Assembly: GCF_032197885.1 (NCBI RefSeq)
Contig: NZ_CP134159.1
Coordinates: forward strand, 496,001 to 560,000
DNA: 64,000 bases
Direction of reading: 5' to 3'
From: Levilactobacillus namurensis
Lineage (GTDB): Bacteria; Bacillota; Bacilli; Lactobacillales; Lactobacillaceae
Made by a program: the position numbers and the translations under genes. The notes beneath the pieces were generated by a model. That model made no database searches. It was not told the origin of the DNA and was given only the letters and a program-made list of their open reading frames with translations. Of the stretch, positions 6,680-42,677 are shown piece by piece; the stretch's first letter is position 1, and every line of letters begins with the position of its first letter.

Positions 6680-6730
6680 CGCGAGAACCGTTGACGCCGT
6701 TGACCAAGACGGATATGCTAAAGATAATCT

Positions 6731-6818
6731 AACACTAGGGGTGCCCGTCATGGGCTGAGATGCAGAGCTGCGATCCCTTGGAATCTGTTCAAGTTAAGAC
6801 TTGCGAAGGGAACGTGTT
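6731..6818 (+). promoter_or_regulatory. TPP riboswitch (thi box)
   Basis: The hallmark bases of the THI element are in order: GGGGTGCC, GGGCTGAGAT, CCCTTGGAATCTGTTC and CTTGCGAAGGGAACGTG. The ends pair (AACAC at 6731 with GTGTT at 6818) to form P1. It stands directly ahead of thiM-thiD-thiE. Binding of thiamine pyrophosphate should favour the terminator just downstream. Confidence 0.95.
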
Positions 6819-6828
6819 TTGTGGAAAC

Positions 6829-6873
6829 AACGCCACCAGACCACGACCTGTTCGTGAGCTGGTGGCGTTTTAC
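6829..6873 (+). terminator. Riboswitch-controlled terminator
   Basis: AACGCCACCAG at 6829-6839 pairs perfectly with CTGGTGGCGTT at 6859-6869, followed by TTTTA. It lies between the TPP aptamer and thiM, so it is the likely expression platform for transcription attenuation. Confidence 0.85.
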
Positions 6874-34248: not shown

Positions 34249-34431
34249 GCCGGCGGCCGTTCCTAAGCTAAACGTGTGCAATACCGTAAGTTTCGCGTTA
34301 TAACGAAGGTGAGTGGTGAGTCCCACCACCTAGAGACGCGTTTCTAATCAACACCCGACCGGCGCCTAAGCGGCTAGCGTCACTTTTCCTCCAAACAAGA
34401 CCCCATAGCGGGGGCGCTCCCCGGGTGTCTG

Positions 34432-34472
34432 ATACTGATGATTCGCCAATGACGGATCGTCAGTATTTTTTT
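34432..34472 (+). terminator. Terminator after the NmrA-like gene, with structured 3' region
   Basis: ATACTGATGAT pairs with ATCGTCAGTAT (one bulge) and runs into seven T. Upstream, ACACCCG near 34350 is complementary to CGGGTGT near 34422 and CCCC-ATAGC-GGGG lies between, so the 180-base 3' region is itself folded. Confidence 0.85.
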
Positions 34473-34528
34473 GTCCAGTGGGTGGTTTGGGGGTTAAACT
34501 GTCCAGGAAATTTTTTGTGTCTATTCTG

Positions 34529-34557
34529 TTGCAAACGCTTACAGTATATGGTATATT
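34529..34557 (+). promoter_or_regulatory. Promoter of the large noncoding RNA
   Basis: TTGCAA (34529-34534), a 17-base spacer, and TATATT (34552-34557), preceded by TGG (extended -10). A cre-like sequence overlaps the spacer. Confidence 0.85.
34530..34543 (+). promoter_or_regulatory. Cre-like CcpA site overlapping the ncRNA promoter
   Basis: TGCAAACGCTTACA matches TGWNANCGNTNWCA except at the third base. It overlaps the -35 and spacer, which would give carbon catabolite repression of the RNA. Confidence 0.55.
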
Positions 34558-34563
34558 ACCAGT

Positions 34564-35181
34564 GTAGAAAGGATTAGGAGTTGCGATTCACAGCAACACT
34601 TGATCTAGTTGATACACTGCTTTAGTTAGAAACAGATTTCCGTTTTCACGTAAGTCTGAGTCAACAAAGTACCAGTTCCAGAATGCAACACATGTACCAG
34701 CGCACCAAGCTTAAATGTTTTAGGTTTCAGGTTTAGGCAACAGTAGAGGTACCTTTTCGAAACGTGTAAGACAGGTAAACCTTCTAACGAACTCTAGAAG
34801 AATCAATTGGCAAGACACTTCACAGAAAATTGAATAGCTTTGTGGTAACTGAGATGTTTTAAGATTTAGCAAACAGAGTCACGAATGCAGTACTAGAGCT
34901 CGAATGTTGGTCTGGCAGGCAGCACAAAGATTTCAGTAAGAATCGTTACCAGTGACAGTTGGTCAGAACCAATGAAGGAATTAAGTTCTTCAGTATCACC
35001 GAGACGGTAGTCAGAAACTAAACAAAATGAAGAACGACTGCGGCAGCTCGGGAGAAATTAAAGTTTATGAGGCGATTAAGGATTAATACGATTACGAAAC
35101 GGAAATTAACGGATCGCAACCTCCTTTCTACGAACTAATGGACTTCAAGCTGATTCCTAACCTTGCTTGAAGTCTATTTTT
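34564..35181 (+). ncRNA. Large structured noncoding RNA, about 617 nt (ROOL/GOLLD-like candidate)
   Basis: Promoter at 34529-34557 and terminator at 35141-35181 frame about 617 bases with no ORF of note on this strand and a base composition unlike coding DNA. The ends pair over 500 bases: AGAAAGG (34566-34572) with CCTTTCT (35123-35129) and TTGCGAT (34581-34587) with ATCGCAA (35113-35119), forming a closing helix. Many local hairpins are visible inside: CTTCTA/TAGAAG near 34790-34800, TTGGT-CAGA-ACCAA near 34959, ACCG-AGA-CGGT near 35000. TTTAGTT (34621) can pair with AACTAAA (35016). Size, closing helix and independent transcription recall the ornate large RNAs ROOL (about 580 nt, known in Lactobacillus) and GOLLD. 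Family membership is inference; that it is a discrete RNA gene is well supported. Confidence 0.8.
35141..35181 (+). terminator. Terminator of the large ncRNA
   Basis: GACTTCAAGC (35141-35150) pairs perfectly with GCTTGAAGTC (35165-35174), followed by TATTTTT. Confidence 0.9.
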
Positions 35182-35396
35182 ATGGTTTAGCTCCTCGGCG
35201 CAATTTGGATACATAGGATTTTGAGAATTGCTTCGCGTGTTGTCAAAAATGAGAAAGGGATTAGTGTCATAGGTAAATCCTTTTAGCAAACACTGAGCAG
35301 GGATTGAGAGCGGTAACAACTTCCGAAGCCAATCGGTGAGGCTCTCAGATAATGTTCGGTAAAAATGCTTTTTCTTAAGTTTTCCCGCGAGAAGCA

Positions 35397-35425
35397 TTTA
35401 CAGCCCCCACCGGAAAAGGTATATT
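35397..35425 (+). promoter_or_regulatory. Promoter of the DeoB-like gene
   Basis: TTTACA (35397-35402), a 17-base spacer and TATATT (35420-35425), 64 bases before the TTG start. Confidence 0.75.
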
Positions 35426-35489
35426 ATTACTAAGGCCGGCGCGGGAAAGCGATTCTTTCTTGTCGCCGATGAGAAAGGAAGGGTGTCCG

Positions 35490-36314
35490 TTGGCTTTTCA
35501 TCGCATTTTTGTCTTAGACCTTGCCGGTGTCGGCATGGGAGAAGCCCCCGATGCCAACCGCTTTCAATCCGTGGGTGCGGATACCATTGGCCACGTTGCC
35601 CAGCAATGGCCCGGAGACCTGAGTCTCCCAACATTACAGCAATTAGGCTTTGGCAATATTCGGATTACGAACCCAATCCCGGGAATTCCGCCCGTGGAAC
35701 AACCGACTGGTTATTTTGGTCGCTTGCACATGGCTGCACAAGATAATCGGCGGGCAACGGGTCTACGAGAGATGTGGGATTACACGGGTCCGATTCGTAC
35801 CGAAAGCGTCTTCACGACGTTAACGGCGGCGGGGTACTCGGTAACCTTAGCCGGGCCGTTCTTGAGCTACCTGGCGACCCAGACGCCCGCCGAGCGGTTC
35901 CAAGTTGGGACCAATCAAGCGGCCTTCCAGATCTTATACGATCGGTTGAACGCGCCGGTCTCTGGTCTGACTTACGTGGTCTTGCCGGAGTTTCGCTTTG
36001 CGGGGGAACATCAGGACTTGGAGGCCAGCGCGCAAGCGTTGCAGATGACGGATCAACATTTGGCCCAGGTGATTCATGACTTGGGCGCCAACGACCTGTT
36101 GATCCTGACTGCGACCCACGCCGCCGACCCGATCTTTGGGCCGACACCGACCCGCGAGTACCTGCCCTTGTTGGTCTATTCACCGTCCCGGCAAGCAAGT
36201 CATGCGTTGGGCATTCGCCGGACGTTAGCGGATGTGGGGGCCACGATCCTCGAGAATTACGGGGTCGCTCCGACGACGACCGGACATAGCTTATTAAATG
36301 AATTAACGCAATAA
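35490..36314 (+). CDS. Catalytically degenerate phosphopentomutase (DeoB) paralogue lacking the cap domain
   Basis: 274 residues, homologous to the true DeoB at 42.7 kb (395 residues) along both ends but missing about 110 central residues that form the cap. It opens (L)AFHRIFVLDLAGVGMGEAPDA, parallel to [22 protein letters not shown], so the first metal Asp is Ala. The nucleophile loop [13 protein letters not shown] is AAQDNRRATGLREM, and [18 protein letters not shown] is TATHAADPIFGPTPTRE. At least three metal or catalytic positions are therefore lost, so mutase activity is improbable. The TTG start at 35490 aligns exactly with DeoB's Met and has GGAAGGGTG upstream. It precedes nupC and is close to the deo operon; a regulatory or binding role in nucleoside metabolism is inference. 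Confidence 0.85.
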   Translation: MAFHRIFVLDLAGVGMGEAPDANRFQSVGADTIGHVAQQWPGDLSLPTLQQLGFGNIRITNPIPGIPPVEQPTGYFGRLHMAAQDNRRATGLREMWDYTGPIRTESVFTTLTAAGYSVTLAGPFLSYLATQTPAERFQVGTNQAAFQILYDRLNAPVSGLTYVVLPEFRFAGEHQDLEASAQALQMTDQHLAQVIHDLGANDLLILTATHAADPIFGPTPTREYLPLLVYSPSRQASHALGIRRTLADVGATILENYGVAPTTTGHSLLNELTQ

Positions 36315-36572: not shown

Positions 36573-37841
36573 ATGTTAGTCGCAATTAATATTTTAGGGG
36601 TAATTGTTTACCTCGCTATCGCTTTCCTGTTCTCTAAGGACAAGAAGCATATCAACTGGCGGTCTGTTGGGATCGTTTTAGTCATCAACCTGTTACTGGC
36701 CTGGTTCTTAACTGGGTTCCAGATTGGACGGGACATCGTGCAAGGTGCCGCGGACGGATTCAACTGGTTGGTTGAAGTTTCCTACCAAGGAATCATCTTT
36801 GCCTTACCTAACTGGGTAACGCCAATGTATGGTGGGACTGCGAAGTCTATGAACTTCATTACCAGTGCTCTGCTGCCAATCTTGTTGATTGTTCCACTGT
36901 TCGATATCCTGACTTACATCGGGGTATTGCCTTGGATCATCAAGTGGGTTGGTCGTGGCCTGTCCTTCATTACTGGTCAACCTAAGTTCGAATCATTCTT
37001 CTCTGTTGAAATGATGTTCTTAGGGAACACGGAAGCCTTAGCCGTTTCCAAGTTACAATTACAGACCATGCGTAAGGAACGTGACTTGACCTTAGCCATG
37101 ATGTCTATGTCTTGTGTCACGGCGTCAATTTTGGGGGCTTATACCCAAATGGTGCCTGGTCAATTTGTTTTGACCGCCGTTCCACTGAACATTTTGAACG
37201 CGATTATTATTACCAACATGCTGAACCCTGTTAAGGTCGCACCTGAAGAAGATACGATTGCCAAGGTCGGCGGTGCTGGTGCTGCTTCTGAAGCTGCCGA
37301 AGCCGATGGTGCCGAAGAAAACGGGAAGCGCGAACCATTCTTCTCCTTCTTGGGTGACTCCATCTTGGGTGCCGGTCGTCTGGTTCTGATTATCACGGCC
37401 AACGTTATCGCCTTCGTTGCCTTAGCGGCCATGATCGATAAGATCTTGATGCTGTTCAACCCATGGCTGACTTTGGAACACATCTTGGGTGTAATCATGT
37501 TCCCATTTGCTTGGTTAATGGGTCTGAACGTCCACGACGCCTTCCAATTCGCCCAATTCATGGGAACTAAGTTAGTCACGAACGAATTCGTTGTCATGGG
37601 TAAGTTGGTCGGCAAGATCAACAACCCAGACCTCTTCTCCGCTCACTACCGTGCTGTCTTGACCGTCTTCATCACGTCATTCGCCAACTTCGGGACGACT
37701 GGGATGATCATCGGTGCCTTTAAGGGTATGGTTGACCGTGAAAAGAACGATTTGATTTCCAAGAACGTTGGTTACATGTTACTTTCCGGGATTCTGGTAT
37801 CCTTAATGTCTGCCGGGATCGTTGGTCTGTTCGTTTGGTAA
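36573..37841 (+). CDS. nupC: Concentrative nucleoside transporter NupC (CNT family)
   Basis: 422 residues, about ten membrane segments. The CNT hallmarks are YGGTAKSMNFITSALLPILLIVPLFDILTYIGVLPWIIK, GQPKFESFFSVEMMFLGNTEALAVSK (nucleoside-binding hairpin) and FANFGTTGMIIGAFKGM. It imports nucleosides with a cation down the proton or sodium gradient. Length is standard. Codon use is more biased to preferred codons than that of its neighbours, suggesting high expression. An AAAGAGG ribosome binding site lies upstream. Supplies substrates for the hydrolase and the deo operon farther right. Confidence 0.93.
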   Translation: MLVAINILGVIVYLAIAFLFSKDKKHINWRSVGIVLVINLLLAWFLTGFQIGRDIVQGAADGFNWLVEVSYQGIIFALPNWVTPMYGGTAKSMNFITSALLPILLIVPLFDILTYIGVLPWIIKWVGRGLSFITGQPKFESFFSVEMMFLGNTEALAVSKLQLQTMRKERDLTLAMMSMSCVTASILGAYTQMVPGQFVLTAVPLNILNAIIITNMLNPVKVAPEEDTIAKVGGAGAASEAAEADGAEENGKREPFFSFLGDSILGAGRLVLIITANVIAFVALAAMIDKILMLFNPWLTLEHILGVIMFPFAWLMGLNVHDAFQFAQFMGTKLVTNEFVVMGKLVGKINNPDLFSAHYRAVLTVFITSFANFGTTGMIIGAFKGMVDREKNDLISKNVGYMLLSGILVSLMSAGIVGLFVW

Positions 37842-39509: not shown

Positions 39510-40424
39510 ATGACAATTAAAATTTTGATGGATACCGACCCCGGTATCGACGATGCAGCGGCTTTGACGATGGCCATCAACGACCCGAAGATCGACTTGA
39601 AGTTAATCACCACGGTCGCTGGGAACGTTACGGTCGACAAGACCACTAAGAATGCGTTGAAGATCGTGCGGTTCTTCAACCAATCCATTCCAGTGGCTGC
39701 CGGTGCCGAACAACCTTTGTTCAAGGACTTCGAAGATGCTGCACGGATTCACGGGGAATCCGGGATGCCGGGTTACGACTTCCCAGAAGACCTGCCGAAG
39801 CCACTGAACAAGACGGCCGTTGAAGCCCTGCATGATGAGATCATGGCTAGCCAAGATCCCATTACTTTAGTGCCAACGGGTTCTTACACCAACATCGCCT
39901 TACTCTTCTCTGAATACCCAGAAGTGAAGAGCCATATTGACCGGATCGTGGCCATGGGTGGTGCCCTGGGTAAGGGGAACATGACCAGTGCCGCTGAATT
40001 CAACGTCTTCACCGACCCAGATGCAGCAGCTATCGTCTACAAGTCCGGGATTCCGATTGTCATGGTTGGCCTGGATATCACCATGAAGGCGCTGTTGACT
40101 AACGAAAACATCGAGAAGTTGCAACACATCAACGAAGCGGGCCAGATGTTGCACGACATCATCATCAACGATGGTGACCACAGCGACAAGGGTAGCGCGA
40201 TGCACGATGTGAACACCATCTTCTACCTGCTGCACCCAGAAGCCATCAAGACCGAAGACATGTGGGTCGACGTGGTTACCCAAGGCCCAGCTATCGGTGA
40301 AACGGTTGGGGACATCCGGGGGGCTTACCACAACGGCAAGACCAACGCCAAGGTTTCCGTCGACATCGACGACCAAGCCTTCAACGACTGGTTCATGCAA
40401 GAAGTTCGGAACATCAAGATGTAA
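39510..40424 (+). CDS. Ribonucleoside hydrolase (inosine-uridine preferring)
   Basis: 304 residues. The calcium-binding signature ILMDTDPGIDDAAAL opens the protein. VPTGSYTNIALL, VAMGGALGKGNMTSAAEFNVFTDPDAAA and MHDVNTIFYLLHPE hold the ribose and base contacts. It cleaves the N-glycosidic bond of ribonucleosides to base and ribose. The gene lies after the NCS2 permease and has a strong GAGGAGGAAA ribosome binding site. Probable catabolite repression through a cre-like dyad. Specificity (RihA/B/C type) is not resolved. Confidence 0.92.
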   Translation: MTIKILMDTDPGIDDAAALTMAINDPKIDLKLITTVAGNVTVDKTTKNALKIVRFFNQSIPVAAGAEQPLFKDFEDAARIHGESGMPGYDFPEDLPKPLNKTAVEALHDEIMASQDPITLVPTGSYTNIALLFSEYPEVKSHIDRIVAMGGALGKGNMTSAAEFNVFTDPDAAAIVYKSGIPIVMVGLDITMKALLTNENIEKLQHINEAGQMLHDIIINDGDHSDKGSAMHDVNTIFYLLHPEAIKTEDMWVDVVTQGPAIGETVGDIRGAYHNGKTNAKVSVDIDDQAFNDWFMQEVRNIKM

Positions 40425-41987: not shown

Positions 41988-42677
41988 ATGACATTAACGA
42001 CTCAAGCACTCGCCAAATACATGGATCACACGAACTTAAAGGCTGACGCGACGGAAGCGTCCATCAAACAGACTTGCGACGAAGCCAAGCAATTCAATAC
42101 GGCTTCGGTTTGCGTCAACTCGTATTGGATTCCATTTGTGACCGAACAATTAAAAGATAGTGACGTTAATCCCATCGCCGTTGTAGGGTTCCCCCTCGGA
42201 GCCATGGCAACGGCAAGCGAGGTCTTCGAAGCACAGACCGCGATCGACCAAGGTGCCGAAGAAATTGACATGGTCATCAACATCGGTGAATTAAAAGCCG
42301 GAAATGAAAGCGTTATCAAGGACGACATTCAAGCCCTCGCCGACGCCGTTCACGCCAAAGGCAAGCTCTTGAAAGTCATCTTAGAGACCTGCTTGTTGAC
42401 TGACGACGAAATTGTGCTGGGTTGCCAACTCAGTGAACAGGCCGGAGCCGACTTTGTGAAGACGTCGACCGGATTCTCCACGGCCGGGGCGAAGATCGCC
42501 GACGTGAAGTTAATGCGGCAGACCGTCGGTGACCGGTTAGGGGTCAAAGCTTCCGGCGGGATTCACAGTAAAGCCGAAGCCTTAGCCATGATTGATGCCG
42601 GTGCCAGTCGTTTAGGGGTCAGCGCGACCGTGGCCATTCTGACGGACCAGACGGCCGACCAGAACGCCGGTTATTAG
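41988..42677 (+). CDS. deoC: Deoxyribose-phosphate aldolase DeoC
   Basis: 229 residues, class I aldolase, TIM barrel. It cleaves 2-deoxyribose-5-phosphate to acetaldehyde and glyceraldehyde-3-phosphate. [13 protein letters not shown] opens the fold, VVGFPLGAM and [12 protein letters not shown] follow; the Schiff-base Lys is in [13 protein letters not shown] and the second Lys in [10 protein letters not shown]. First gene of deoC-deoB-deoD-deoR-pdp behind the DeoR operator; AAAGGGG ribosome binding site. Confidence 0.96.

Follow-up and report, generated by a model that had tools for sequence, protein, structure and literature searches.

A gene for a large non-coding RNA lies on the forward strand of a 64-kb stretch of Levilactobacillus namurensis DNA (hereafter the window), where it occupies positions 34529-35183 from promoter to terminator. 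The RNA itself, about 618 nt long, would span 34564-35181 (+), its ends being placed from the promoter and the terminator. The promoter (34529-34557, +) combines a -35-like TTGCAA at 34529-34534 with an extended -10 element, TGGTATATT, at 34549-34557; the spacer measures 17 nt, the -10 hexamer is TATATT (34552-34557) with a TG one base ahead of it, and the consensus is matched at 9 of 12 positions. Overlapping this promoter, TTGCAAACGCTTACA at 34529-34543 is a perfect match to the cre consensus, WTGNNARCGNWWWCA. Perfect cre matches number four in the window, two of them being a single palindrome, against 0.28 expected. At the other end of the gene, an intrinsic terminator (35141-35183, +) consists of a stem that is perfect over 10 bp (35141-35150/35165-35174) and a T-rich tail, TATTTTTAT, which comes next; the T-run and most of the stem columns are invariant in a 35-row Levilactobacillus alignment. 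Judged by these signals, the RNA appears to have both a promoter and a terminator of its own. The original prediction for this locus had described an extended -10 promoter, a near-consensus cre site over it and a perfect 10-bp terminator; all three hold, and the cre match proves to be perfect rather than merely near. Its description of the strand as lacking an open reading frame (ORF) holds for ORFs of at least 25 aa inside the RNA body, where the window has none on the + strand. ORFs of at least 50 aa around the body comprise an antisense one inside it (34720-34872), a + strand one that ends just within the 5' end (34425-34577) and a - strand one that overlaps the 3' end (35128-35397).

Downstream of the RNA, and in the same direction, lies an operon for nucleoside use. 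It is preceded by a second perfect cre (35304-35318, +) and by a separate promoter, TTTACA-17-TATATT (35397-35425, +). The first gene (35484-36314, +) encodes a short phosphopentomutase-like protein and is followed by genes for a NupC-type nucleoside transporter that falls below its NCBIfam cut-off (36573-37841, +) and a RihC-type ribonucleoside hydrolase (39510-40424, +). The phosphopentomutase-like protein has about 276 aa, and homologues of DeoB length match it in two pieces, as if its middle domain were missing; short proteins of this kind are also found in genera that lack the RNA. The order of RNA, short phosphopentomutase-like gene and NupC recurs in 34 other members of the genus. Of 35 genus members, 31 have this operon promoter, the other four having been searched over about 300 bases. 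In 9 of the 35, the interval between RNA and operon holds a cre that is perfect or has one mismatch. The window contains no tRNA gene, in agreement with the original placement of the RNA away from any tRNA.

Distribution among related genera

By blastn the RNA is present in all 35 Levilactobacillus genomes searched, L. brevis included. A pattern built on a conserved motif, run over GTDB contigs, returned 52 stretches, of which 31 hold the whole RNA by profile (428-599 bits): 29 from Levilactobacillus (one of them a Candidatus), one from 'Lactobacillus sp. HBUAS51381' and one from an uncultured 'Lactobacillus sp.'. None of the remaining 21 exceeds 11.3 bits. Two further genera came in with R1, a covariance model built on the 3' core: 12 genomes of one, g20, were matched at E 9e-15 to 4e-8, and two of the other, g14, at E 0.06 and 0.1. 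With R2, a further covariance model that includes all three genera, 64 of the 397 family genomes sampled were matched at E<=0.1, and 58 of these were accepted (25 Levilactobacillus, 13 g20 and 20 g14), every g20 and g14 locus having been inspected; one genome with a weak match (G047, E 0.033) was taken in for its operon, its cre and its closing helix. The model matched once per genome in 56 of the 58. The carriers form a group of lactic acid bacteria associated with food. Second copies of the RNA, complete with promoter, closing helix and terminator, were seen in two g14 genomes (L234 at G324:C113 and L237 at G385:C105). Two g20 genomes, G053 and G089, gave no R2 match. Of the 70 homologous loci compared across the three genera, 69 have a perfect or one-mismatch cre over the -35, the locus L230 being truncated by a contig end, and 66 have NupC downstream in the same orientation, with two g14 loci stopping at a contig border.

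Several weaker matches were set aside. R2 matches in other genera (G081, G099, G270, G296, G313 and G379, E 0.011-0.074) were not accepted, and three of them (G099, G270 and G313) were judged false; neither were R1 matches in G043, G088 and G102 (E 0.02-0.06), of which that in G088 was judged false. Blastn also matched other genera, in 11 genomes (E 2e-4 to 0.01); five of these loci were profiled (L080-L084), and none was convincing. At the level of the order, 8 of 246 genomes matched at E<=0.05, namely the window's own, three of g14 and four outside the family; these last (G421, G434, G507 and G540, E 0.001-0.05) were not accepted, G540 having been inspected and judged false. At 14 loci with a short phosphopentomutase (12 in other genera, two in the g20 genomes G053 and G089), R2 run with filters off over at most 1.5 kb on each side gave a best E of 4.4. 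Neither phages nor plasmids were matched in blastn searches with the window RNA and a g14 member, nor plasmids with a g20 member, and three pattern scans of viral contigs yielded no convincing match, the single one (L137) scoring 8.8 bits by profile. R1 also scored on motif-bearing contigs, both viral (L137, E 0.006) and bacterial (L109, E 0.0006; L121, E 0.003); these matches are taken as chance because the contigs had been chosen for a 19-base motif that R1 itself contains.

Conserved secondary structure

The two ends of the RNA are brought together by a closing helix in two parts. P1a pairs TAGAAAGGA (34565-34573, +) with TCCTTTCTA (35122-35130, +), and P1b pairs GTTGCGAT (34580-34587, +) with ATCGCAAC (35113-35120, +), so encompassing the end pairings that had been predicted for this locus (AGAAAGG at 34566-34572 with CCTTTCT at 35123-35129, and TTGCGAT at 34581-34587 with ATCGCAA at 35113-35119). 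The closing helix reads GGAAAGG/CCTTTCC or AGAAAGG/CCTTTCT in Levilactobacillus, GGAAGAGA/TCTCTTCC in g20, and GGAAGGGA/TCCCTTCC or the 7-bp form in g14. Its pairing is kept through sequence change between the three genera, which is the outcome of the check on closing-helix covariation among homologues that the original prediction had proposed. The helix is contiguous over at least 7 bp in 68 of the 70 loci; in L230 a contig border cuts off the 5' end, and L229 pairs ATGTGGTA/TACCACAT and GGGA/TCCC, interrupted by one bulged A. In Levilactobacillus the 3' strand of P1 contains ACCTCCTTTCTA (35119-35130), a strand that g20 and g14 alter. This sequence resembles the 3' end of 16S rRNA (the anti-Shine-Dalgarno sequence), and ribosome mimicry via CCTCCTTTCT was entertained but dismissed, since in g20 and g14 the helix persists while the P1 3' strand differs.

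Inside the closing helix, a long-range helix, P2, joins GATTTCCGTTTT (34635-34646, +) to GAAACGGAAATT (35096-35107, +) and has counterparts in the g20 and g14 folds. P3 pairs CCTTC (34780-34784, +) with GAAGG (34974-34978, +), and P4 pairs 34788-34798 (+) with the CTAGAGCTC region at 34892-34902 (+). A hairpin domain follows at 34906-34973 (+), built from 34906-34910/34969-34973, 34921-34925/34952-34957 and 34926-34933/34940-34947, and then a two-part hairpin at 34997-35053 (+) with an outer stem (34997-35003/35047-35053) and an inner one (35007-35012/35036-35041). Over the 35 rows of the Levilactobacillus alignment, 93% of cells are paired in P1b, 98% in P2 and 97% in P4; in the two-part hairpin the figures are 65% for the outer stem and 100% for the inner. 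Next comes the conserved motif ATGAGGCGATTAAGGATTA (35067-35085, +), within which TGAGGCGAT is invariant in a 24-row alignment of the three genera; the g14 locus L242, outside that alignment, has AGAGGCGAT. Consensus folds made for each genus separately agree on P1, an inner long-range helix, a two-part hairpin with an ACGG/GGCAG internal loop and then TGAGGCGAT. The g20 fold contains equivalents of P3 (ATTTC/GAGAT, recognised by eye) and of P4, neither of which was recovered in the fold of g14. Mostly-gap columns were excluded from the consensus folds, and L229 and L230 from that of g14. By eye, Levilactobacillus shows three occurrences of a motif resembling GGNATTAAG; it was dropped because g20 does not keep it. 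One metagenome-assembled genome, of Candidatus Levilactobacillus faecigallinarum (L038:3899-4519), carries an insertion of about 60 nt after an ATTAAG motif in the 3' core.

The RNA sequence of the window folds, by itself, only mildly better than its shuffles (z -2.28, 20 shuffles); it is the comparison among relatives that supports the structure. In a held-out test, the structure was derived from 27 Levilactobacillus sequences with no covariation bonus and tried on eight others, where 866 of 1039 cells were paired (83.3%) and 24 pairs showed double changes. Slid controls paired 54.7-69.5% of a smaller number of cells with 9-16 double-change pairs, and partner shuffles gave means of 60% and 8.4 pairs, with maxima of 69.5% and 17. 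Not every helix fared equally in the held-out group: P1b was paired in 49 of 64 cells, P2 showed no double change, and some helices paired poorly, such as 35062-35067/35089-35094 (19 of 48 cells). The three genera were compared in two further alignments. In A3, with 28 rows (13 chosen Levilactobacillus loci and L095 among them) fitted to the model, the paired share of cells was 91.3%, compared with 78.5% in shuffles and no more than 51.2% in slid controls. In A4, which is A3 less four near-duplicates (24 rows) and was aligned without the structure, the corresponding values were 85.8%, 70.7% and at most 48.5%; both sides had changed in 13 of 15 hairpin pairs, and the covariation score, 0.569, exceeded those of shuffles (0.277) and of slid controls (at most 0.170). 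The 31 further pair types in A4 are not unusual, since 80 of 500 shuffles reached that number. For another alignment, A2, 10 of the 35 members were dropped (near-duplicates, and L038 with its insertion). An all-pairs covariation test against a tree-based null, applied to the 35 Levilactobacillus sequences, returned no pair at E<1 at a mean of 2.7 substitutions per column, which leaves it little power; covariation within the genus may therefore be partly a signal of lineage. On the comparisons with shuffled and slid structures the RNA has a conserved secondary structure with compensatory changes, the tree-based null test standing against.

Comparison with known RNA families

The window was scanned with all 4227 Rfam families, with a positive control for ROOL alone among ROOL, GOLLD and OLE. 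Above threshold the only match in the window was a TPP riboswitch at 6727-6829 (64.6 bits), far from the RNA. At E<=10 nothing was matched inside the RNA, and two weak matches both fell in flanking sequence upstream of the promoter; at gathering score, 18 loci of the three genera were likewise without a match within the RNA. Membership of ROOL, GOLLD, OLE or any other Rfam family was rejected on this covariance scan. Outside the RNA, one locus (L171:7545-7737) matches the family of the Listeria sRNA rli28 above gathering score. The ROOL model itself (RF03087, gathering threshold 99.1 bits), run with stricter filters on 121 family genomes, produced three matches and did not report the new RNA in G033 or G000. 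One of the three, in L. zymae (G033, C30:4618-5152, locus L140), is a genuine ROOL that scores 106.4 bits, above the gathering score; it sits on a different contig from the new RNA, ahead of genes for tRNA-Lys, -Asn, -Ser and -Trp, and the genome thus has both RNAs. The other two ROOL loci have no tRNA within their 1.5-kb flanks.

OLE is chromosomal, as is the new RNA, and its gene neighbours differ from those of the new RNA. In length, too, it is similar, at about 600 nt, and the OLE complex has been tied to growth on alternative carbon sources (as described in PMC9723947 and PMC10898510); a further difference is that the new RNA has no Rfam match. With ROOL the new RNA shares free-standing organisation, a length of about 0.5-0.66 kb, an elaborate fold and occurrence in Lactobacillaceae (as ROOL is portrayed in PMC12286853 and PMC5643018). 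A long non-coding RNA of the Ligilactobacillus salivarius megaplasmid (PMC5643018) is counted as ROOL in the account of PMC12286853. ROOL, however, is largely carried by prophages, phages or plasmids, often in tRNA islands, whereas the new RNA keeps a fixed chromosomal place behind its cre promoter (69/70 loci). GOLLD, described in PMC12286853 as large, free-standing, ornate and partly from Lactobacillales, differs in that many of its members exceed 800 nt and are linked to phages, and the new RNA again has no Rfam match. The Lactobacillus plantarum supermotifs (LPSM) are also long RNAs of a lactobacillus, but their published description (PMC5643018) sets them apart as multicopy RNAs of 800-1000 nt specific to L. 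plantarum, whereas the new RNA is mostly single and belongs to other genera. The smtA motif resembles it as a large structured RNA of unknown function and narrow taxonomic range, but as presented in PMC11109978 that motif is confined to Thioalkalivibrio and lies upstream of smtA, whereas the new RNA has its own promoter and terminator; the main text of PMC11109978 contains no occurrence of 'Lactobacill'. Among the literature matches listed, none describes the new RNA, which is weak evidence of absence.

The original prediction had assigned the RNA either to the ROOL/GOLLD class or to a new one, and had proposed a covariance search against the Rfam models of ROOL, GOLLD and OLE, which found no match within the RNA. 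Similar size, closed ends, long-range helices and a home in Lactobacillaceae, together with a ROOL in Levilactobacillus itself, would fit a divergent member of ROOL or GOLLD. Against such kinship stand the empty Rfam scans of the window RNA and of the 18 loci, the new RNA's profile, which finds no match at E<=10 at the three ROOL loci (blastn there giving short matches, the best at E 0.02), and a fixed chromosomal locus together with the absence of any phage or plasmid match. Membership of either family is accordingly highly improbable in our estimation, and it is the other half of that assignment, a new class, that is upheld, as is the proposal of a freestanding gene for a large structured RNA on the chromosome. 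We are highly confident that the RNA is real and represents a new family.

Mode of action and rival readings

The arrangement of the promoter suggests how the gene would be used. RNA polymerase would start at the extended -10 promoter, the -35 of which lies inside the cre box, and the position of that box points to control by CcpA, which when bound there would be expected to block initiation; if it does, the RNA should accumulate when the preferred sugar is scarce. As the comparison of relatives suggests, the transcript would stop at its own terminator and fold into a closed, multi-domain structure in which P1 zips the two ends together and P2 encloses a core of several hairpins with conserved internal loops. 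It would then act in trans, a role suggested by its apparently independent transcription unit and its extra copies, and most plausibly an architectural one, in self-association or in a complex with a protein, after the manner of ROOL, GOLLD and OLE; ROOL forms homo-oligomeric nanocages. These parts are not equally secure. That the RNA is a stand-alone, trans-acting unit we regard as probable; an architectural or assembling function, argued by analogy with those large RNAs, is tentative and falls a little short of an even chance. The reading as a whole, a stand-alone, CcpA-controlled and trans-acting structured RNA of an undescribed family whose function is most likely architectural, is in our judgement somewhat better than an even bet.

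The nucleoside operon provides the main reason to consider a local role, and its presence in 66 of 70 loci may leave room for one, against the stand-alone reading. The RNA could be a cis-regulatory leader that controls the operon through its terminator, as an attenuator or riboswitch of very large size: in these loci of three genera NupC comes after the RNA and points the same way, the RNA ends in a terminator, and nucleoside genes would make a plausible target. In 31 of the 35 Levilactobacillus members, however, the operon is served by a separate promoter, and at three loci a listing of ORFs of at least 110 aa places some between it and the RNA: L236 has two (123 and 119 aa), L238 one (210 aa) and L242 two (210 and 116 aa), the product of 210 aa resembling, by eye, an isochorismatase-type hydrolase. 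Furthermore, the two extra copies have no homologue of the operon in about 4 kb downstream, and an unsystematic look noticed no alternative pairing of the terminator. We consider a leader unlikely; the operon's own promoter, the intervening ORFs, the extra copies and the lack of any ORF that is kept all favour an independent gene acting in trans. That last feature bears also on whether the RNA encodes, or doubles as the message for, a small conserved peptide. Many members do have short ORFs, of up to 67 aa, but a conserved ORF, which the original prediction had named as evidence against an RNA gene, was looked for in 35 Levilactobacillus members and is absent; several members, that of the window included, have no + strand ORF of 25 aa, and two of the 35 have none on either strand, so that a coding function is scarcely credible. 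A trans-acting RNA might instead regulate by base-pairing with mRNAs, for example that of the nucleoside operon, as part of a CcpA circuit. Such a role would suit a cre-bearing RNA gene that adjoins a catabolic operon and would make use of conserved motifs such as TGAGGCGAT, but several of the conserved segments are occupied by helices, and several hundred nucleotides of ordered structure far exceed what a pairing regulator needs; we consider it rather unlikely.

The RNA keeps steady company with genes for nucleoside uptake and hydrolysis, and it may on this account be connected with the physiology of nucleosides or of carbon. A bolder proposal, which we put forward as doubtful, is that it founds a new class of self-assembling, chromosomal large RNAs, built like ROOL and GOLLD but unrelated to them, made by lactic acid bacteria when CcpA repression is lifted and serving the carbon or nucleoside physiology of the normal cell rather than phages or plasmids. 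Bacterial RNAs of this size with so much conserved structure are few, and the functions of ROOL, GOLLD and OLE are poorly understood (as summarised in PMC12286853). ROOL and GOLLD are largely RNAs of phages and mobile elements, whereas the new RNA is a fixed chromosomal gene in every Levilactobacillus genome searched (35/35), with a promoter whose cre predicts when to look for it. A fixed chromosomal gene with a predictive promoter, in a genus that includes L. brevis, should make work on its expression, deletion and structure straightforward. Elsewhere in the window, the palindromic perfect cre at 42304-42319, which reads as a match on both strands, marks a further possible CcpA site.
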